DNA of 36,469 nucleotides from Bacillota bacterium (GTDB lineage: Bacteria > Bacillota > Dethiobacteria > DTU022). Positions within the stretch are counted from its first letter, which is position 1, and each line of letters begins with the position of its first letter. Made by a program: the position numbers and the translations under genes. Positions 15,021 to 36,469 of the stretch are shown here, piece after piece. The notes beneath the pieces are model-generated. The model searched no databases, was not told where the DNA came from, and was given only the letters and a program-made list of their open reading frames with translations. The stretch covers positions 1 through 36,469 of the forward strand of contig JAWSUE010000018.1 in the NCBI GenBank assembly GCA_033549065.1, read 5' to 3'.

Positions 15021-16277
15021 TCATAAAGTGTCAATCAGCTTCAAGGAGTACTGCATAGCCAGGGTAACATCCTGGACATTGATTGTTCCGTCCCGGTTGA
15101 TATCGGCTCTGTCCAGCATATCTTTGTCAAGCTCTGTTAGCCAAAGGGCATGCTGCAGGATCAAGGTGACATCAATAATATTGATCACCTGATCATCATT
15201 GACGTCTCCCAGTCCGGGTGGTTTTTCTTTGGCCTGCTCAAGCTGTTCGGGGGTCCATTTAAGCCATCTTTCGATAATCAGCTGGTTCCGGCTGTTCAGT
15301 TGAGGGCCTCCGCTGATTAAATCCGGGATGTTAAAGGTGTGAATGGCCACTACCCGGTATGTATCAGCCTGCTGGTTATAGACGATAACCGGACTGCCAC
15401 TGTTTCCCGGGCTGGTGAATGCATCGTAGAAGAGGCAATAACGATCCTGTTCAACCAGTTTTCCTTCGGATCGCCATTGTCCGAGAGAGTTGCTGCCCCG
15501 GATCACGCCGGGATAACCGATTACGATCAGCTCTTCGGGAATATGGTTGAATTCAAGGGGGATGAAGGTATTGATCCCGCTAAATGGTGTTCTGAAAAAT
15601 AGAGCTGCATAATCATGGTTTACCGAATTATCACGATCTCCTTCATTTTCGTAGCGTATGTAGCTGTCATTTGTCTCAACGCTAACCGGGCTTAAAGTGG
15701 AATAGGGCTGGACCGTTTCCGGCCATTGAGTTTCATATTGCCCGGGAGAGAAGCGTAGAGTAACAAACCAGCCGCCCAGGGGATCTGAATAAACATTATG
15801 GCCGTTAGTCAATGCTGTATGCGGGCTGACCAGGAAAGCGGTGCCGCGCATGTAGGATTCCGGAAAAATGATACTTAAAAAACCGATGGTATTGTTGGGA
15901 TAAGCTGTTGCCAGGCTGCTGTCAACTGCTGTGCGGTTGTCCGTAATTCCTTCCTGATTCAGGGTGAAGGAACTACTGTAAATGTCCAGGTTTTCTCTTT
16001 CCCACTGCCTGGATTTATAGAGCAGTTGGATCACTTCTTCAGATGTGAGTTCCCTGCTGTCGGGCTCAAGCAGGGTTATTGAAAGGCTGTTATCAAGGGG
16101 ATCATAGTATTCAAGCCACTTGTGAAAACGATTATCAATAATCTGCATTACCAGGCGGTGGTTGTAAATATTTTGGTCTGCCCTGGTTGAAGCAAATACA
16201 GGAGTTGTAAATATCAATATCAAGAGCATGAATGAGGCAAGTGTTAAGAAGCAGAAACCTGATCTGGACAGCTTCAT
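15021..16277 (-). CDS. Secreted V8-like serine protease with C-terminal dockerin
   Basis: 418 residues. It has a signal peptide (MKLSRSGFCFL, hydrophobic core, cut near VFAS), a pro-region, then a trypsin-fold S1B/glutamyl-endopeptidase-like domain. The catalytic triad is His160 in ALTNGHNVYS, Asp222 in NHDYAALFF and Ser293 in TSPGNSGSPV. Residues 357-418 form a type I dockerin with two calcium-binding repeats, GDVNDDQVINIIDVTLILQ and ADINRDGTINVQDVTLAMQ. Dockerins plug into cohesin modules of extracellular complexes. No cohesin gene is in this window. Start ATG 16277 chosen over GTG 16289 because AAGGTGG lies 8 nt before it. It has its own promoter (16332-16361), divergent from the symporter operon. 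Confidence 0.9.
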   Translation of the reverse strand: MKLSRSGFCFLTLASFMLLILIFTTPVFASTRADQNIYNHRLVMQIIDNRFHKWLEYYDPLDNSLSITLLEPDSRELTSEEVIQLLYKSRQWERENLDIYSSSFTLNQEGITDNRTAVDSSLATAYPNNTIGFLSIIFPESYMRGTAFLVSPHTALTNGHNVYSDPLGGWFVTLRFSPGQYETQWPETVQPYSTLSPVSVETNDSYIRYENEGDRDNSVNHDYAALFFRTPFSGINTFIPLEFNHIPEELIVIGYPGVIRGSNSLGQWRSEGKLVEQDRYCLFYDAFTSPGNSGSPVIVYNQQADTYRVVAIHTFNIPDLISGGPQLNSRNQLIIERWLKWTPEQLEQAKEKPPGLGDVNDDQVINIIDVTLILQHALWLTELDKDMLDRADINRDGTINVQDVTLAMQYSLKLIDTL

Positions 16278-16331
16278 CTTAAATACCACCTTAGGAGGGT
16301 GATCAAGAAGCCCTGGTTATCAGTCAGGGGC

Positions 16332-19217: not shown

Positions 19218-19868
19218 TTGAAGGATATTCTGAATAAAATTGGCACAGCTATTTTGGAAGGTGACAAAGAAAATACCCTGCTGGCTGTCCGGGAAGGCCT
19301 GGATCGCGGAATCGGCCCTCTTGAAATGATTTCAAAAGGCTTGACCGTGGGGTTAGGGCAGGTGGGTGAAAAGTTTGAAGATGGTGAGTATTTCCTGCCC
19401 GATATGATGCTTGCAGCCGAAGCGATGAGCGCTGCCCTGGATCTACTTGAACCGCATATGGAAAAAGAAAGAGCACTGGGGAAAAGTGAGTCTGTCAGGG
19501 TGGTTATCGGGACTGTAAAGGGTGATCTGCATTCCATCGGTAAGGATATAGTGATCATGATGATGAAAGCAGCCGGGATGGAGGTATATGATCTGGGAGT
19601 GGATGTACCTAATGCGAAATTTATTGATGCAGTTGAAGATAGAAACGCCGATATTCTTGGCATATCAGCCCTGATGACTACAACTATCCAAGAGCAGAAA
19701 AATGTTATTGATCTTTTATCGGAAAAGGGGCTGCGTGAAAAGGTAAAGGTCATTGTCGGTGGAGCACCGCTTTCTGAAGAATGGGCGGTTAAAGTCGGGG
19801 CTGATGCTTACGCGGCCGACGCCATATCTGGAATTAAGAAGATCAATACGCTGTTGAATCGTTCCTGA
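19218..19868 (+). CDS. Corrinoid protein, methyltransferase subunit (MtbC/MttC-like)
   Basis: 216-residue methyl-carrying corrinoid protein. Residues 1-90 form the helical cap (B12-binding N-terminal domain; EKFEDGEYFLPDMMLAAEAM is typical). Residues 92-216 form the Rossmann-like B12 domain, with the cobalt-ligand motif DLHSIG (Asp103, His105, Gly108) and later SALMTTT and VGGAPLS. It would accept a methyl group from the MttB-like protein encoded 16 nt downstream and pass it to tetrahydrofolate via another enzyme. Neither that enzyme nor a RamA-type activase is in the window. Start TTG 19218 has AGGAGG 7 nt upstream. Confidence 0.92.
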   Translation: MKDILNKIGTAILEGDKENTLLAVREGLDRGIGPLEMISKGLTVGLGQVGEKFEDGEYFLPDMMLAAEAMSAALDLLEPHMEKERALGKSESVRVVIGTVKGDLHSIGKDIVIMMMKAAGMEVYDLGVDVPNAKFIDAVEDRNADILGISALMTTTIQEQKNVIDLLSEKGLREKVKVIVGGAPLSEEWAVKVGADAYAADAISGIKKINTLLNRS

Positions 19869-19884
19869 GAAAAGGAGTGTTTCC

Positions 19885-21318
19885 ATGATAACTTACGAAC
19901 CACTTACTGCCGCAGATTTGTCCCTGATTCATGAGCTTACTTTAAAAATCCTGCATGAAACCGGAGTTGTAATTGAAGGAAAAGAAGCCCGGGAAATTCT
20001 CCTTGAGGCAGGTTGCCTGGAGAAGAATGGAAGGCTTCTTTTTTTATCAAATACTGTTGAAGAGTGTTTGGCCAAACCTATACCGGTAACTATTTACGGT
20101 ACTGATGAGAAAGTGGTCTTGCCGTTAACCGAAGCTCCCCGGACATACGCTCATAATTTCGGGTCTGTTTCTTTTTTGCTTGACCATGAAACCGATGCTA
20201 TTCGTGAAGCTACGGTTGCCGACCTCGAAGCATTTATCCGGCTCAGTGATTCACTGCCCCATCTTGATATGGTAGTTCCCAGCCTCAGGCCGACCGATCT
20301 TCCCGAAGAAATAGCCTCACTGGCCATGACCGCATATGCCCTGCAGAATACTTCAAAGCCGGTTGATATCGGCACTGCATCAGATTCCTGGGAAGTTCGT
20401 TACCTGATCCGGCTTGCTGCGGCAGTCAGGGGTGGAATTGAAAAACTTTTAGAAAAACCGATGGGGACCATCTCCATATCACCTCTAAGCCCCCTGAATT
20501 TTCCCGCAGATATTACCGATGCAATAATTGTCGGAGCCCGTTCAGGACTGCCGCTGACTATGCTGCCCTGTCCCACCCGTGGATTAACAGCACCGTTGAC
20601 CCTGGCCGGTGGTTTGGTTCAGCAAAATGCCGAACAACTGGCTTTTCTGACTTTGGCCCGTTTGGTAAATTGGGATACACCACTGGTGTACACCTGCCGC
20701 CTGGCTGCTGCAAATATGCGAACCGGTTTTGTCGGGGGCAAAGATCCCGATCTTGGTTTTTCCGGTGCCTGTGTAGCCCAGATTGCCCGCTATTATGGGC
20801 TTCCTTCGGGCGTATACGGACTTGATACCGGTTCTGCTCTTCCGGATATTCAGTCGGGTTATGAACGGGCAATAAACTGCCTTCCCCCGGTTATGGCCAG
20901 GGCAACCTTTGTATCCGGAATGGGTTTGCTCAATGGAGGGTTGCTGGCAAGCGCTGAACAGCTGGTTATTGATGATGAGATCCTGGGGATGATTACCCAC
21001 CGTAAAAAGGGTATCGAGGTTAGCAGGGATTCAATTGGTGCTGAAGTGATTGAGTCTGTTATGAACGGAGGTAATTTTTTAGCCCAGGAGCATACACGGG
21101 ATTACCTGCGCCGGGGAGAGCTGTACATGGGCAAACTTGGCAATGATGCACCTTTTGAGGAATGGAAAGTTTCAGGAAGTAAGACTGTTCGCGATGGAGC
21201 CAAATTGCGATTGAATAAAATTTTATCCGAACATCCGGGGAGAATCCTGGACAAAGTAATCTGCAACAAGTTGGAATCGATCCTGGAAGAAGCCAGGGCT
21301 GAAAAAAAAGGGCTGTAA
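19885..21318 (+). CDS. MttB-family methylamine/betaine:corrinoid methyltransferase, non-pyrrolysine
   Basis: 477-residue TIM-barrel protein of the trimethylamine methyltransferase (MttB) superfamily. Typical segments are LILHETGV-like LKILHETGVVIEGKEAREIL near the start and the barrel portion GTISISPLSPLNF, with the C-terminal HTRDYLRRGELYMGKL (normally HTLxxFRxxxxxP). There is no in-frame UAG, so it belongs to the pyrrolysine-free branch, which demethylates glycine betaine, proline betaine, carnitine and similar quaternary amines (MtgB, MtpB, MtcB). Its substrate is unknown. It pairs with the corrinoid protein and is followed by an oligopeptide-type importer rather than a betaine transporter, which is unusual. 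AAAGGAG ribosome site before ATG 19885. Confidence 0.9.
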   Translation: MITYEPLTAADLSLIHELTLKILHETGVVIEGKEAREILLEAGCLEKNGRLLFLSNTVEECLAKPIPVTIYGTDEKVVLPLTEAPRTYAHNFGSVSFLLDHETDAIREATVADLEAFIRLSDSLPHLDMVVPSLRPTDLPEEIASLAMTAYALQNTSKPVDIGTASDSWEVRYLIRLAAAVRGGIEKLLEKPMGTISISPLSPLNFPADITDAIIVGARSGLPLTMLPCPTRGLTAPLTLAGGLVQQNAEQLAFLTLARLVNWDTPLVYTCRLAAANMRTGFVGGKDPDLGFSGACVAQIARYYGLPSGVYGLDTGSALPDIQSGYERAINCLPPVMARATFVSGMGLLNGGLLASAEQLVIDDEILGMITHRKKGIEVSRDSIGAEVIESVMNGGNFLAQEHTRDYLRRGELYMGKLGNDAPFEEWKVSGSKTVRDGAKLRLNKILSEHPGRILDKVICNKLESILEEARAEKKGL

Positions 21319-21405
21319 GGGAGGTATGCTTATTTCTGGAGATTCAATCAAAAAGCTTCATATAACTGAAGGGGTAAACAATTAATTTCAAAGGAGGCTG
21401 CTGAA

Positions 21406-23031
21406 TTGCGTAAACTAAAGATAATTACCTTGTTTTTGATTTTGGTTTTTATGCTTGGTTTGCTTCTGACAGGATGTGGAGAAACAGAGGATGAGAGGCA
21501 TATACTGAGGGTCGGGTTTTTAAGAGAAATAGAGAGCCTCAATCCAATGCTTATCTGGTCTTACCAGGCCTATGAAATTATGTACCTTAACTATAACATG
21601 CTGATCGGCTGGGATGAGGATATGAATGTTGTCCCGAACCTGGCCAGTGACTGGGAAGTAGATGATGAAGGGTTGACCTGGACTTTTTACCTGCAGGAAG
21701 GCGTAACCTGGCATGATGGTGAACCTTTCAGCGCAGATGACGTTAAATTTACTTTTGAATATATCCGTGACAATGAACTGGGTTATTTTTATGATTATGT
21801 TGCCGCCATGGAAGAGATCGAGGTTATTGATGAAAACACTTTGGCGATAACTACCGATGAGCCGATAGCCTGGATGCCCCAGATTCTTGTTCCCATCTTT
21901 CCCGAGCATATCTGGTCGGAAGTTGATCCCGAAGATGCCGAAGGAGAATATGCCAATGATGATCCGGTCGGGACCGGACCATTCCAGGTTATAGAACATC
22001 GTAAGGGTGAATTTACCAGGATGGCGGCCAATCCCGATTACTTTAAAGGCGCTCCAGCCCTGGATGAAGTTATTTTTATCGTCTATTCCAATACCGACCT
22101 GATGGTTGAGGCTTTGAAACAGGGTGAACTCGATGTGATCACCTCCGTTCCCGGGGCGCAGTTCAAAGCGCTGGAGGAGGCCGGAGATCCCAATATAGTT
22201 GCCCTGGCTGCCGATTCACCTTCATTCTCCGAGCTTTCATTTAATGTCTGGGAAGATCCTGAATCCCTGGGGAACCCGCTGCTGTTGGATAAGAATATCC
22301 GGGTGGCTATCGAATATGCCATCGACCGGCAGGAGATAATTGATGTCGGTTACCTCGGTTATGGAGAAATCGGTTCAACCCTGGTTCCGCCCCTCTTTGA
22401 ATTCTGGCACCTTGATATGGGGAACGATTTCCGCAGTTACAATCCGGTAACTGCCAACCAGATTCTTGATGAAGCCGGGTATGCCATGGGAGCTGACGGA
22501 ATACGCGTCAGCCCTGAAGGTGAGCCTCTATCTTTCACAATGCTTATTCGCCAGGAATCTCCGGATAACCAGAAAGCGGCAACCCTGATCAAAGATATGC
22601 TGGAAGATGTGGGTATTTCGATCACGATCTCCGTTATCGATGAAGGGACTCTCACAGACCGTATTTTTGACAGCGATTTTGACATGTTTATCTGGGGCTG
22701 GTTTGTCGATGTTGATCCCACCTCGATTCTGAAGGTTGTTACAACCGATGAAATAATGTCCTGGAGCGACTGTTTCTATTCAAATCCTGTATATGATGAA
22801 ATGCACCTGCGCCAGCAGAGGACAATGGACTGGGATGAACGGCAGGCGATCATTCATGAAATGCAGCGTATTTTCTATGATGATGCCGCTTATATCATTC
22901 TTTCTTATGATCCGGAACTGCAGGCGTACCGGACCGATAGCTATGAAGGGTGGATTCGTAACCCGCGTACCGGACCGGTTATCTTTACCAACGTGGTTGA
23001 TACCTATGAGCAGCTGCGCCCGATTGAATAA
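21406..23031 (+). CDS. ABC transporter substrate-binding lipoprotein (Opp/Dpp, SBP family 5)
   Basis: 541-residue extracytoplasmic binding protein. The lipobox LLTGC (Cys24) anchors it to the membrane. Features of SBP_bac_5 are LRVGFLREIESLNPMLIWSY, PNLASDWEVDDEGLTWTF, LQEGVTWHDGEPFSADDVKF and NIRVAIEYAIDRQEI. Family members bind di- and oligopeptides, nickel chelates, sugars and other amides. Start TTG 21406 has AAAGGAGG 8 nt upstream. It is separated from mttB by 87 nt and from the permeases by a stable hairpin, as expected for the most abundant component. Confidence 0.93.
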   Translation: MRKLKIITLFLILVFMLGLLLTGCGETEDERHILRVGFLREIESLNPMLIWSYQAYEIMYLNYNMLIGWDEDMNVVPNLASDWEVDDEGLTWTFYLQEGVTWHDGEPFSADDVKFTFEYIRDNELGYFYDYVAAMEEIEVIDENTLAITTDEPIAWMPQILVPIFPEHIWSEVDPEDAEGEYANDDPVGTGPFQVIEHRKGEFTRMAANPDYFKGAPALDEVIFIVYSNTDLMVEALKQGELDVITSVPGAQFKALEEAGDPNIVALAADSPSFSELSFNVWEDPESLGNPLLLDKNIRVAIEYAIDRQEIIDVGYLGYGEIGSTLVPPLFEFWHLDMGNDFRSYNPVTANQILDEAGYAMGADGIRVSPEGEPLSFTMLIRQESPDNQKAATLIKDMLEDVGISITISVIDEGTLTDRIFDSDFDMFIWGWFVDVDPTSILKVVTTDEIMSWSDCFYSNPVYDEMHLRQQRTMDWDERQAIIHEMQRIFYDDAAYIILSYDPELQAYRTDSYEGWIRNPRTGPVIFTNVVDTYEQLRPIE

Positions 23032-23064
23032 CTGAAAAGAAACACTTTTATTCTGTACCGGGAC

Positions 23065-23091
23065 AGGGCCGGTCATTTGCAGACCGGCCCT
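23065..23091 (+). promoter_or_regulatory. Intercistronic hairpin between binding protein and permease genes
   Basis: AGGGCCGGTC / GACCGGCCCT, a perfect 10-bp GC-rich stem with a 7-nt loop, followed by TCACGG and not a U-run. It is therefore more likely a 3'-end stabiliser or partial attenuator that raises binding-protein mRNA relative to permease mRNA. This is common in Opp operons; the role here is inferred. Confidence 0.6.
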
Positions 23092-23124
23092 TCACGGTGA
23101 CGGTATTCCGGGAGGTAAAGTGGT

Positions 23125-24096
23125 TTGAATATGCGAGGTTATCTGCTGAAAAAATTTGTCCAGGCATTGATTACTGTCTTTATTGTAATTATTATGAACT
23201 TCTTTCTATTCAGAATTATGCCCGGTGATCCGATCCGGGTTCTGATCCGCAACCCAAGAATTTCTTCCGAAGCCCTTGAACGGGTCAGGGAGCAGTTTGG
23301 TTTAAATGAAAACAGGTTGGTGCAGTTCTGGATCTATCTCCGCGATCTCTTTTCCGGTGATCTGGGTGTTTCTTTTAACTATCGACAGCCTGTGCTTGAT
23401 GTAATCATGGAAAGGGTTCCGGCGACTCTGTTGCTTATAGGCACAGCCACCGTTTTATCAATTATCATCGGAGTAATATTGGGTGTAATTCTGGCCTGGA
23501 AACGGGGAACCAGACTTGATATTACCGGCTTAAGTATTTCGCTCATCCTCTATTCCATGCCTACTTTCTGGGTGGCCATAATAATGGTCATGATCTTTGC
23601 CGTTTACTGGCAGATATTTCCTCTTGGTGGAATGGGGATGCCCGGTGTCTTTCATACAACTCTCTGGAGCGAGCTGTTATCCCGGTTGCGTTATCTTTTT
23701 CTGCCTACGGTTACTTTTGCCCTGATCCTGATCGGGGAATATGTGCTGATCATGCGCAGTTCCCTGCTCGAAGTTATGCGGGAAGATTATATGCTCACTG
23801 CACGGGCAAAGGGAGTTAGCAACCGTAATCTGCTCCGCAAACATGCCCTGCCCAATGCAATGCTCCCCGTTGTGACACTGATTGCCATTAACCTGGGATT
23901 TATTGTCGGCGGGGCAATTCAGATAGAAACTGTATTTTCCTGGCCTGGTTTGGGAAGGTTGATGTATTCAGCGCTGACAAATCGCGACTATCCAGTTTTG
24001 CAGGGCCTCTTTCTCTTTGTGACTGTTGCCGTTGTCGGAGCAAATTTTTGTGCAGATATACTTTACCGTTACCTGGATCCCCGGGTTAAATCTTAG
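23125..24096 (+). CDS. ABC permease, DppB/OppB type
   Basis: 323 residues and six predicted helices. The N-terminus reads YLLKKFVQALITVFIVIIMN and FRIMPGDP, the hallmark of DppB/OppB. The cytoplasmic EAA loop is DYMLTARAKGVSNRNLLRKH, which contacts the ATPase. It forms the import channel together with the next gene. Start TTG 23125 with GGGAGG 9 nt upstream; ATG 23131 is an alternative. Confidence 0.92.
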   Translation: MNMRGYLLKKFVQALITVFIVIIMNFFLFRIMPGDPIRVLIRNPRISSEALERVREQFGLNENRLVQFWIYLRDLFSGDLGVSFNYRQPVLDVIMERVPATLLLIGTATVLSIIIGVILGVILAWKRGTRLDITGLSISLILYSMPTFWVAIIMVMIFAVYWQIFPLGGMGMPGVFHTTLWSELLSRLRYLFLPTVTFALILIGEYVLIMRSSLLEVMREDYMLTARAKGVSNRNLLRKHALPNAMLPVVTLIAINLGFIVGGAIQIETVFSWPGLGRLMYSALTNRDYPVLQGLFLFVTVAVVGANFCADILYRYLDPRVKS

Positions 24097-24107
24097 GGGG
24101 TGTTAAG

Positions 24108-25007
24108 ATGAACACTAATTTGGCAAAAAGTGACACCCTGGTTTTATGGAGAAAGAATATTACTTCATTCTGGTCTGTTTACAGCCAGAACAAAATGGGT
24201 TTGATCGGCCTGATTATTTTAATTTTCTTTGCCTTGATGGCTATACTGGGTCCATACCTGGTAAATATAACAACCTATGCGGTTGATGGAATAACCCAGG
24301 TTTTGCATCCGCCCACTTCAGATTACTGGTTGGGAACGGATGATCTCGGAAAAGATATTTTTGCGGGAGTGATTATCGGGTCAAGGGTTTCACTGCTGGT
24401 TGGCGTAGCTGCCACGGCTATCTCGATGGTAATCGGGACTGTTATCGGCATCGTCTCCGGCTTTTATGGCAAAACAATTGATACACTTTTAATGAGATTT
24501 ACAGATGTTTTTCTCGTCATACCCTGGCTGCCCCTGATGCTGGTGATGGCTGCACTGTTGGGACCAAGTCTTGGCAATATAATATTTGTTATCGGTATAA
24601 CGAGTTGGGCCGGAACGGCCAGGATAATCCGTTCACAGACACTAAGTGTGAAGGAAAGACCTTATGTTGAAAGAGCCAGGGCCATTGGCAGTGGCGATAC
24701 GCATATCATGTTCTATCATATTTTGCCCAATGTATTTCCACTAATCTTTGCCAACACAGTTTTGGTTGCTGCTGTTGCCATTCTTTCTGAGACTACCCTT
24801 AGTTTTCTGGGAATGGGTGACCCAACCCAGGTAACCTGGGGCATGATGCTTCATTTTGCCTTCTCTATGGGCGCCGTGTCCTTTGGTGCCTGGTGGTGGC
24901 TGCTGCCTCCGGGAATTTGTGTTGTTCTGGTAGTGTTAAGCTTCACATTTATCGGCTATGCCCTCGACGAAGTTTTGAATCCGAAGTTAAGGAGGCGCGA
25001 TCAATGA
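24108..25007 (+). CDS. ABC permease, DppC/OppC type
   Basis: 299 residues. The long N-terminal cytoplasmic segment, helix 1 (MGLIGLIILIFFALMAILGP) and the motif WLGTDDLGKDIFAGVIIGSR are diagnostic of DppC/OppC. The EAA loop is YVERARAIGSGDTHIMFYHI, and ETTLSFLGMGDP follows. It partners the preceding permease. Its stop overlaps the ATG of the next gene (ATGA), giving translational coupling. Confidence 0.93.
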   Translation: MNTNLAKSDTLVLWRKNITSFWSVYSQNKMGLIGLIILIFFALMAILGPYLVNITTYAVDGITQVLHPPTSDYWLGTDDLGKDIFAGVIIGSRVSLLVGVAATAISMVIGTVIGIVSGFYGKTIDTLLMRFTDVFLVIPWLPLMLVMAALLGPSLGNIIFVIGITSWAGTARIIRSQTLSVKERPYVERARAIGSGDTHIMFYHILPNVFPLIFANTVLVAAVAILSETTLSFLGMGDPTQVTWGMMLHFAFSMGAVSFGAWWWLLPPGICVVLVVLSFTFIGYALDEVLNPKLRRRDQ

Positions 25008-25972
25008 CACTGCTCAAGGTTGAAAATCTTACAACCTACTACAAGTTAAAGGAAGGATATGTCCGCGCCTGTGAAAATATTTCTCTGCAGCTTGAACAGG
25101 GAGAAGCTCTTGGTTTGGTCGGTGAATCTGCTTCCGGGAAGACAACGGCTGCCCTCTCTCTGATAAAACTGCTGCCGGATAATGCGCATATCATGAAAGG
25201 AAGTATCAGGCTCGACGGCAGAGAGATCGTCAATACTACCGAAGAAGAACTGCGTGCTATTCGCTGGAAGGAGATCTCCATCATTTTCCAGGGAGCGATG
25301 AATGCCTTGAACCCGGTCCGCAGGGTTGGTGAACAGATAGCTGAAGCGCTTAGAATTCATGAAAAACTGAGTGATAAGGAAGCGACCAGGCGGACTGTTG
25401 AACTGTTTGACCAGGTTGAAATTGATCCCGACCGGATCCGGGAGTACCCCCATGAATTCAGCGGGGGGATGCGGCAGAGGGTAATGATTGCCATGGCGAT
25501 AGCCTGCAATCCAAAAGTGGTGATCGGTGATGAACCGACAACCGCCCTTGATGTAATGGTCCAGGCCCAGGTTTTACAGCTGCTTGAAGGGCTGCGCCGG
25601 GAGAGGAAAATGGGGATGATACTGATCACCCACGACCTTTCTGTTGTCGGAGAAACCTGTGATCGAGTGGCCGTCATGTATGCAGGACAGATTGTTGAAT
25701 CCGGGTCTACCGAGAAAATATTTGATAACCCGGCACACCCCTACACCCGGGCCCTGATTAAAGCATTTCCCAATATTGAAGGTGAACGCCATATGGCATC
25801 ATCAATCCCCGGTAACCCACCCAACTTGCTTAATCCACCTCCCGGGTGCCGCTTCCATCAGCGCTGTGATCATGCTGCTCCCAGGTGCAGCGAAGAAGAG
25901 CCGAACATGTTGGAAATATCAACAGGGCAGTGGGCATCCTGTCACCTGCTTGAAAGGCGGGTGAAGATATAA
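25004..25972 (+). CDS. ABC transporter ATPase, OppD/DppD type
   Basis: 322 residues. Walker A GESASGKT (40-47), Q-loop IIFQGAMNALNPVRRVGEQI, signature FSGGMRQR, Walker B VVIGDEPTTALD and switch His in ITHDLSVV are all intact. The C-terminal oligopeptide-transporter extension carries FHQRCDHAAPRC, with cysteines that in relatives form an iron-sulfur-like site. ATG 25004 was chosen because AAGGAGG lies 8 nt upstream and it overlaps the oppC-type stop. Confidence 0.93.
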   Translation: MTLLKVENLTTYYKLKEGYVRACENISLQLEQGEALGLVGESASGKTTAALSLIKLLPDNAHIMKGSIRLDGREIVNTTEEELRAIRWKEISIIFQGAMNALNPVRRVGEQIAEALRIHEKLSDKEATRRTVELFDQVEIDPDRIREYPHEFSGGMRQRVMIAMAIACNPKVVIGDEPTTALDVMVQAQVLQLLEGLRRERKMGMILITHDLSVVGETCDRVAVMYAGQIVESGSTEKIFDNPAHPYTRALIKAFPNIEGERHMASSIPGNPPNLLNPPPGCRFHQRCDHAAPRCSEEEPNMLEISTGQWASCHLLERRVKI

Positions 25973-26979
25973 TGCCCATGGTGACGAATCGAGATCAAAA
26001 TTTATTGCTTGCAGTGGAAAATCTGGAGGTTCACTTCACTGCCCGGGCCGGTTTTTTCACATCCCTGCTTCGCAAAGAACCCTGCCTGGTCAGGGCTGTT
26101 GACGGCATTGATTTTGAACTGGGTCAGGGTGAAATTCTATGTCTGGCCGGTGAATCCGGTAGTGGTAAAACGACAACAGGCAAAGCTATACTTCGTTTAC
26201 TCGAACCGACAGGTGGAGATATCCATTTCAGGGGCGAGGATTTACGCTCATTTAGCCGCAGCCGACTGCGCCGATTCAGGCAGGAAGCACAGATTATTTT
26301 TCAGGATCCCTATGAATCGCTAAATCCCCGACAGACAGTTTTCGCCACTGTTGCTGAGCCCTTGGAAGTAAACGGGTTGTGCCACACCTACCGGGAAAAA
26401 GAAGAACGGGTAATTGAAGCACTCTGTGATGCCGGTTTAAGTAATCCCGGTGAGCTTTTTATACGCTACCCGCATGAATTAAGCGGAGGGCAGCGGCAGA
26501 GACTGGCCATAGCCAGCGCCCTGGTATTGAAACCCAATTTTATCGTGGCCGATGAGCCCGTATCCATGCTTGACCTCTCGATCAGGGCTGGGATTTTAAA
26601 GTTGATGGTGGAACTGCGCGATAGTAAAGGGATCAGTTATCTTTTTATAACTCACGATCTTTCTTTGGCCTGGCTTGTTTCCGATAGAATAGCGGTTATG
26701 TATCTGGGCAAGATTGTTGAACTGGGCACAGCTGATGCCATCATTAAGTCGCCGCTGCATCCCTATACAAAAGCCCTGGTATCTGTTATTCCAGTTCCGA
26801 AAAGGGTTTCGCTAACCGGTAAAACCCTGCTGCAGGGAGAGACGCCGGATCCGATCAATATACCTTCGGGCTGCAGGTTTCATCCAAGATGTCCCGAAGC
26901 CCGTCCCCGCTGCAGTGAAGAGGAACCGGTATACCGTGAGGTTTTCCGTGGACACTTCGGAGCCTGCCACTTTATATAG
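25972..26979 (+). CDS. ABC transporter ATPase, OppF/DppF type
   Basis: 335 residues; heterodimer partner of the preceding ATPase. Walker A GESGSGKT, Q-loop IIFQDPYESLNPRQTV, signature LSGGQRQR, Walker B FIVADEPVSMLD and ITHDLSLA. The C-terminal motif FHPRCPEARPRC repeats the cysteine pattern of its partner. ATG 25972 overlaps the previous stop by one base (TAATG). It completes a full importer: one binding protein, two permeases and two ATPases. Confidence 0.93.
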   Translation: MPMVTNRDQNLLLAVENLEVHFTARAGFFTSLLRKEPCLVRAVDGIDFELGQGEILCLAGESGSGKTTTGKAILRLLEPTGGDIHFRGEDLRSFSRSRLRRFRQEAQIIFQDPYESLNPRQTVFATVAEPLEVNGLCHTYREKEERVIEALCDAGLSNPGELFIRYPHELSGGQRQRLAIASALVLKPNFIVADEPVSMLDLSIRAGILKLMVELRDSKGISYLFITHDLSLAWLVSDRIAVMYLGKIVELGTADAIIKSPLHPYTKALVSVIPVPKRVSLTGKTLLQGETPDPINIPSGCRFHPRCPEARPRCSEEEPVYREVFRGHFGACHFI

Positions 26980-35652: not shown

Positions 35653-36201
35653 ATGCGGTCACCGGCTACAACCGCCTATAAAGCTATTATAATAATAATG
35701 CTGTTATTTGTTCTTATTCTTTTGATTAATGGATGCAGTCCAGATCTGCAAGATGCAGCTTCGGAAGAACCTGAAGACTCCGGGATTTCGGAATCGGAGG
35801 CGGTAATCCTGAATGGTGTCGAATTTACACTTGAACTGGCCCTAACCCCTGAACAAAGATCGACCGGGTTAATGTGGCGGGAGTCAATTGGAGAGAGTGA
35901 AGGCATGCTCTTTGTGTTTCCCGATGAAGAACCTTTTCCCACGGAGGTCAGTTTCTGGATGAAAAATTGCCTGGTGCCCATCGATGTGATTTTTATCAAC
36001 CGGAAGGGGATCATCACGGCAATACATGAAATGGAACCACCGTTACCCGGCACTCCCGACGAAGAACTTGCCACCTACCCGAGCCGCGGCCCGATTCAGT
36101 ATGCCATCGAAATTCGCGGCGGCATGGCAGCCGAACTCGGCCTCAGGGTTGGAAACGCAATCGAATTAAGAAAAGATTTCCTCCTGCCCCAAGCCAAATA
36201 A
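35653..36201 (+). CDS. DUF192 lipoprotein
   Basis: 182 residues. The signal peptide ends in the lipobox LINGC (Cys28). The rest is one DUF192 domain: LALTPEQRSTGLMWRESIGE, GMLFVFPDEEPFPTEVSFWM, KNCLVPIDVIFI and the C-terminal YAIEIRGGMAAELGLRVG. Small secreted proteins of this family have no established biochemical role. Ribosome site AAGGATTGAGGG before ATG 35653. It is divergent from the DUF502 gene across 116 nt. Confidence 0.9.
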   Translation: MRSPATTAYKAIIIIMLLFVLILLINGCSPDLQDAASEEPEDSGISESEAVILNGVEFTLELALTPEQRSTGLMWRESIGESEGMLFVFPDEEPFPTEVSFWMKNCLVPIDVIFINRKGIITAIHEMEPPLPGTPDEELATYPSRGPIQYAIEIRGGMAAELGLRVGNAIELRKDFLLPQAK

Positions 36202-36204
36202 CCG

Positions 36205-36409
36205 CACACGGGGACGGTTCTCCTGTGTTGTTATTTAGACCAGAGTCGGATCTATTTTCACTGATCTTTATATGTCTAATAATATTAACCCCATATCCTG
36301 TTATATCCGGCACTGTTATTTCATATGTATATGTTAATTAAGCGCAAGTGAAGGATGAAAATCGGCAGATTAGAAATAATAAATGACACAGGAGAACCGT
36401 CCCCGTGTG
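36205..36409. mobile_element. MITE/REP-type element with perfect 24-bp inverted ends
   Basis: The 24 bases at 36205-36228 (starting CACACGGGGACGGTTC) occur as an exact inverted copy at 36386-36409. The 157-bp interior is AT-rich and encodes nothing. Each end can also fold on itself (ACAC...GTGT with G-T pairs). Ends of this kind flank REP-associated IS200-like transposase genes in several clostridial genomes, as I recall; here no transposase remains, so it would be a non-autonomous or deleted copy. It starts 3 nt after the DUF192 stop codon and ends 24 nt before the tRNA-Gln. Confidence 0.75.
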
Positions 36410-36433
36410 TTGTTTTTGAAATGGGTATAGAAA

Positions 36434-36469
36434 TGGCTGGGGCGGTAGGATTCGAACCTACGCATGCGG
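36434..36469 (-). tRNA. tRNA-Gln, 3' part, cut by the window edge
   Basis: On the minus strand the last 36 bases give the T arm GTAGG-TTCGAAT-CCTAC, the acceptor 3' strand CGCCCCA, discriminator G and an encoded CCA. The acceptor CGCCCCAG and the preceding CGCATGCG fit bacterial tRNA-Gln, whose 5' end would be TGGGGCG beyond the window. The anticodon is outside the window, so the identity is inferred from the acceptor end. Confidence 0.8.

Follow-up and report, generated by a model that had tools for sequence, protein, structure and literature searches.

A transposase-free unit with inverted GGGGAC hairpin ends beside tRNA-Gln in a Bacillota bacterium, and a candidate Y1 transposase in the same genome

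Described systems and the window unit

The TIRtron/TIRYT system is described as a Y1 tyrosine transposase gene with terminal inverted repeats, which carry the motif GGGGWSAS in some cases; in some genomes the ends are reported to be repeated also as singles, dimers or groups (PMC3733652, BMC Genomics 2013). In the open-licence collection that was searched, these names were found only in PMC3733652 and PMC6006769, and the latter reports that TnpA-REP subclass 2.1 takes in 20 of the 26 published TIRYTs. REPINs, which are mobilised by RAYTs, are described as two inverted palindromic ends with no gene inside and with the enzyme encoded elsewhere in the genome, and 71 bp are given as the distance between the ends of the GI doublet (PMC3116915, PLoS Genet 2011).

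The window, that is, the whole stretch of 36,469 nucleotides that was analysed, holds a 205-bp unit between a DUF192 gene and tRNA-Gln (Table 1). Judged by its sequence, the unit resembles the published TIRtron/TIRYT system. Its core, GGGGACGG, fits seven of the eight positions of the GGGGWSAS consensus as given in PMC3733652. Inverted ends of the same type flank a Y1 HUH transposase gene on contig C6 of the same genome, and window-type ends are repeated away from that gene. The arrangement is already known, and the odd feature of the window unit is its long single-copy interior, in which, as in the one core position outside the consensus, it differs from the TIRtron/TIRYT system. With REPINs it shares the two inverted palindromic ends, the absence of a gene inside and an enzyme encoded elsewhere in the genome. 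It is, however, 205 bp long with an interior that other copies do not share, whereas the short pairs of the relative G039, described below, do share their spacer. The REPIN tag GT[AG]G is absent from both strands of 36190-36245 and 36370-36420. Identity with CGTC REPs was considered and rejected, because these are described as a short palindrome ending in CGTC with no associated, flanking transposase (PMC3733652), whereas the present ends flank a transposase gene and carry CCGTCCCC inside the hairpin.

Table 1. The unit and its neighbouring genes in window coordinates
Feature	Position	Strand	Basis and remarks
DUF192 protein, 182 aa	35653-36201	+	Pfam PF02643, 102.9 bits; left host gene, outside the element
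Left terminal hairpin with stem CACA...TGTG around core GGGGAC	36205-36228	+	Repeat search, genome copies
Interior	36229-36385	.	157 bp; one copy in 99 genomes; no trace of a transposase detected
Right terminal hairpin, matching the left end exactly in reverse complement	36386-36409	-	Sequence and repeat search
tRNA-Gln 3' end, cut by the contig end	36434-36469	-	Identity with L054; right host gene

The two terminal hairpins form an exact 24-nt inverted repeat, as found by a repeat search and by sequence reading, so the initial annotation, which had placed perfect 24-bp inverted ends at 36205-36409, was right to the base. The repeat search also gave a larger, imperfect inverted pair around the core, 41 nt long and 83% complementary (36197-36237 and 36377-36417), and this was the sole pair found. 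The left end reads CCGCACACGGGGACGGTTCTCCTGTG. It is preceded by CCG at 36202-36204 and, with this CCG included, begins directly after the DUF192 stop codon, which ends at 36201. The C6 ends also have the outer CCG, and the right window end is without it.

Folded as RNA, positions 36202-36420 reached -75.8 kcal/mol, while shuffled sequences averaged -46.4 kcal/mol (z = -6.9), and none of 200 shuffles was as good. As single-stranded DNA the window ends showed no or weak gain over shuffles, with z between +0.4 and -1.7 for the four strands. Positions 36202-36231 on the + strand folded at -4.3 kcal/mol (z -0.5), not clearly better than shuffles, and positions 36383-36412 on the - strand at -4.9 kcal/mol (z -1.7). 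Two Rfam matches were discarded. That to the miRNA family MIR5998 (E 1.2e-05) reached 35 bits where the gathering score is 180 and was put down to the long hairpin; that to SNORD19, with a score of 21 where 35 is the gathering score, was put down to chance.

The interior has a G+C content of 31%. Six open reading frames of 21-56 codons overlap the unit, which is too short for a transposase gene, and there is no reason to take any of them as genes. Translated comparison of the unit with the C6 transposase yielded a 9-residue match (E 2.7) that was taken as chance, with the locus L109 as the positive control of the comparison (E 4e-11). The earlier description of the interior as AT-rich and transposase-free was borne out. 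Searched against 99 genomes, including its own, the interior was found at a single place in one genome with no second copy, and it had no match in phages or in the other fetched loci (best E 0.45). When the whole 205 bp were used as the query against 39 other relatives, the ends were matched in nine and the interior in none of these.

Both flanking genes were confirmed as previously annotated, the unit being bordered by the DUF192 stop codon on one side and the tRNA-Gln 3' end on the other. The DUF192 protein has, by eye, a likely lipoprotein start. In the relative locus L054, where ARAGORN predicts tRNA-Gln(ttg), the window's final 36 nt recur without a difference over the 35 compared (all but the first). 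ARAGORN found no tRNA on the window, the contig ending inside the tRNA gene, and Rfam matched 36437-36469 weakly to tRNA, the 18.7 bits falling short of the gathering score of 29. Elsewhere in the window, 15021-16289 was seen by eye to encode a predicted secreted serine-protease-like protein with a C-terminus resembling a dockerin repeat pair. A run made up of a corrinoid-protein-like open reading frame, an MttB-like methyltransferase open reading frame and a peptide-type ABC transport cluster was seen, again by eye, at 19218-26979.

The spacer between the two flanking genes was compared across ten DUF192 loci, namely the window and nine relatives. A tRNA-Gln gene lies downstream of DUF192 in the window and in five of the nine relatives; the available stretches of the remaining four showed none, and one of these stops at the DUF192 gene. 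The spacers of the five relatives measure 33, 36, 65, 130 and 842 bp and are all without GGGGAC. That of the window measures 232 bp with GGGGAC and is reduced to 27 bp when the unit is removed. Because the motif is missing from the five spacers and a short spacer remains without the unit, the comparison supports insertion of the unit at this site, as far as sequences of such distant relatives can indicate (their DUF192 proteins are 57-64% identical in aligned parts). The window's genome is the sole one of its genus in the comparison set, which holds no empty site from a close strain.

Copies of the ends and Y1 transposase genes

Across the 2.39-Mb genome there are 26 copies of the core GGGGACGGTTCT and none of its reversed control. 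The 23-mer was found within three mismatches at 13 genome sites, with none for the controls. Since the core and near-copies recur in the genome, the 24-mer is not confined to this locus, in agreement with the mobile-element character first proposed for it. Two main stem types surround the core among the copies read, CACA...TGTG, often with an outer CCG, and GTGTCA...TGACAC; the window ends are of the former type. Exact copies of the 23-mer number three in the genome, namely both window ends and a single site on C14. The C14 copy (C14:7949-7971) is a single window-type end that lies, by eye, just after an apparent stop codon and beside a partial second copy.

The genome has seven IS200-like Y1_Tnp genes. 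The gene at C6 encodes a protein of 265 aa with a Pfam Y1_Tnp score of 48.2 bits (cut-off 23), an HIH motif and a tyrosine within YIHQNP. Against NCBIfam NF047646 (REP-associated tyrosine transposase) the protein scored 62.4 bits, below the cut-off of 80, with E 4e-17, and a search of solved structures gave no match. On one side of the gene stands AAACCGCACACGGGGACGGTTCTTCTGTGCGG and on the other a nearly identical copy in inverted orientation, both of the CACA...TGTG stem type, as in the window; these two ends differ at two positions within the 23-mer. The search proposed earlier for an IS200-like REP transposase with the same flanks thus led to the C6 gene. Among the other six Y1 genes, L017, L019 and L020 combine the GGGGAC core with different stems, L018 has ends with GAGGGAC, and L022 and L023 have unrelated repeats.

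The relation of stem to core was assessed in 34 transposase genes from this genome and its family, gathered by transposase domain alone, without regard to the motif. GGGGAC was found within 245 nt upstream of 22 of the 34 genes, the corresponding figure for random stretches being 155 of 1700. The 25 core-bearing genes of this set had a mean stem of 6.3 nt, against 4.0 nt when the halves were swapped between genes and a maximum of 4.9 nt in 2000 shuffles. Because the two sides of the core pair over this greater length than swapped halves, each end is read from its sequence as a hairpin in which the stem varies and the GGGGAC core is fixed.

A wider set of 44 genes behaved similarly, with GGGGAC in 29 of 44 against 211 of 2200 random stretches, and with 34 core-bearing genes having a mean stem of 6.0 nt against 4.0 nt (maximum 4.8 nt in 2000 shuffles). 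Ten of the 44 (nine from L065-L184, plus L027) had been fetched through the motif or the window ends, and the stem test was therefore redone without them, on the 34 genes described above. An initial stem test had used 23 hand-picked ends and left out L082, L198 and L117, which also bear the core; it was then redone by rule. Under this rule the core nearest upstream of the gene is scored, which in L117, L167, L203 and L209 was a place other than the repeat found there; these four were kept, and the core picked in L203 is probably a chance one. The family locus L191, which was unmatched by the C6 protein, stands outside the stem and core counts. An inverted repeat holding GGGAC was found around 26 of the 42 genes with a whole reading frame, two further genes being cut. 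No convincing inverted pair was found around several of the remaining genes, for example L122, L204, L196, L218 and L210, and none at all around L208.

Pair orientation, alternative readings and arm concordance

Close neighbours in this genome (n = 7) comprise six inward pairs, one tandem pair and no outward pair, and one of the six inward pairs joins two different stem types. A scan of public genomes gave at least 120 stretches with the motif, and all 120 entered an analysis of neighbours, taken as copies within 400 bp. Among the matches listed, 43 neighbouring pairs were found, of which 29 are inward, 13 tandem (eight '++' and five '--') and one outward, a fixed mutual orientation of inverted palindromes like that in REPINs. 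A second likeness to REPINs is in spacing, most of these inward pairs spanning 54-79 bp. Among the matches listed, 24 of the 29 inward pairs are shorter than 100 bp and the remaining five cover 127-357 bp, and the window unit falls in the long class.

At the level of sequence, the repeated ends, the C6 Y1 gene with ends of the same type and the inward pairs all support the initial annotation's proposal of a REP pair mobilised in trans. The window unit is probably a transposase-free, non-autonomous unit with two inward recognition hairpins of a TIRYT/REP-associated Y1 HUH transposase, the enzyme most likely being that of C6. Against movement of the unit as a whole, the interior is single-copy, so no second copy shows movement of the 205 bp.

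It is rather unlikely that the two ends are separate insertions which face each other by chance across an old spacer. Tandem neighbours do occur, as counted above among the public matches listed, and so do single ends, such as C14:7949. The inward bias of the same matches is nevertheless strong, with 29 inward pairs to a single outward one. Moreover, the 27-bp spacer that remains without the unit resembles those of two relatives (33 and 36 bp), and both window ends are the same variant, of which the exact 23-mer exists elsewhere in the genome only on C14.

MITEs of IS200/IS605-type elements have recognisable ends and no transposase. A conventional MITE, meaning a transposon copy with an internal deletion that is mobile as a single unit and present at other places too, is unlikely here. 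The window's inverted ends are common to a transposase gene, and a long pair in Desulfosporosinus sp. (L109:3469-3756, 288 bp) encloses a degraded, 62-codon piece of a transposase gene with 40% identity, as such a deletion predicts. This L109 pair is likely a step from the full element to a transposase-free unit. Several copies of the whole unit would be expected of a MITE, but the window interior is unmatched in the other fetched loci and in 98 other genomes, has no second place in its own and retains no detected transposase remnant. Because the interior occurs once in 99 genomes, the unit is not a multi-copy MITE; the earlier suggestion of a MITE holds for the inverted ends shared with a transposase gene and fails for the interior.

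An immobile bidirectional terminator is very improbable, for although DUF192 and tRNA-Gln converge and 35900-36469 has six terminator-like sites against 0.6 expected, five of them within the hairpin ends, the T-runs are poor, and a terminator leaves unexplained both the variable stem with its fixed core and the recurrence of the motif next to transposase genes and in at least 120 public stretches.

The perfect match of the ends had also been taken to suggest recent mobility, which does not follow. G039, a relative of the same order, holds 20 short doublets (for example L224 and L226-L234) that form an apparent REPIN population on the GGGGAC core, 19 of them with an identical 51-bp layout and a similar spacer. 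The arms of these doublets co-vary, including an inner-stem T/C change matched on both sides. At three variable positions the arms agree in 19 of 19 doublets, one of the 20 pairs (C114:19742, a triple) having been left out; when the arms were shuffled within G039 the mean was 6.9, and none of 10,000 shuffles reached 19. Since the search pattern admits only short gaps and exact cores, it would pass over pairs in G039 that have diverged further. Among the public matches listed, 22 of the 29 inward pairs are concordant at three letters, against a mean of 4.7 and a maximum of 15 in shuffles that mix genomes. The concordant pairs are 20 of the 24 short and two of the five long ones.

The arms of short doublets thus tend, by their sequences, to change together. 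Because the arms co-vary within one genome, perfect ends need not mean recent movement, and the agreement in all 19 doublets suggests that arms stay matched through a process other than, or besides, recent insertion. One published process is template switching between the arms, which is reported to homogenise inverted repeats (PMC8604942); selection for pairing and descent from different master copies are alternatives. Perfect inverted ends are weak evidence of recent movement.

Proposed mechanism and meaning

The most likely candidate enzyme for the window unit is the C6 protein, which is encoded in the same genome by a gene lying between ends of the same stem type. By analogy with IS200/IS605 elements and REPINs, it would bind each end as a single-stranded hairpin and cut with its tyrosine. 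The doublet would move, or would formerly have moved, through a single-stranded intermediate without target duplication. For the origin of the 205-bp unit, a jump of the whole, a longer element and two separate ends are alternatives. The window hairpins may also serve as weak terminators for the two converging transcripts.

More tentatively, the Y1 transposases of this family and its relatives may read a modular hairpin, in which the GGGGAC core is fixed for the enzyme family and the stem is exchangeable and specific to the enzyme. The ends of doublets might then be kept identical by compensatory change, through template switching or selection for pairing, and perfect ends would measure homogenisation and not recent movement.

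An orphan-looking inverted repeat is here linked with a probable enzyme of its own genome, and repeats of this kind in the group are identified as ends of a known single-strand transposase system. The concordance of the arms warns that perfect inverted ends are not proof of recent movement. The rule of a variable stem on a fixed core may offer a direct way to match each transposase to its repeats.
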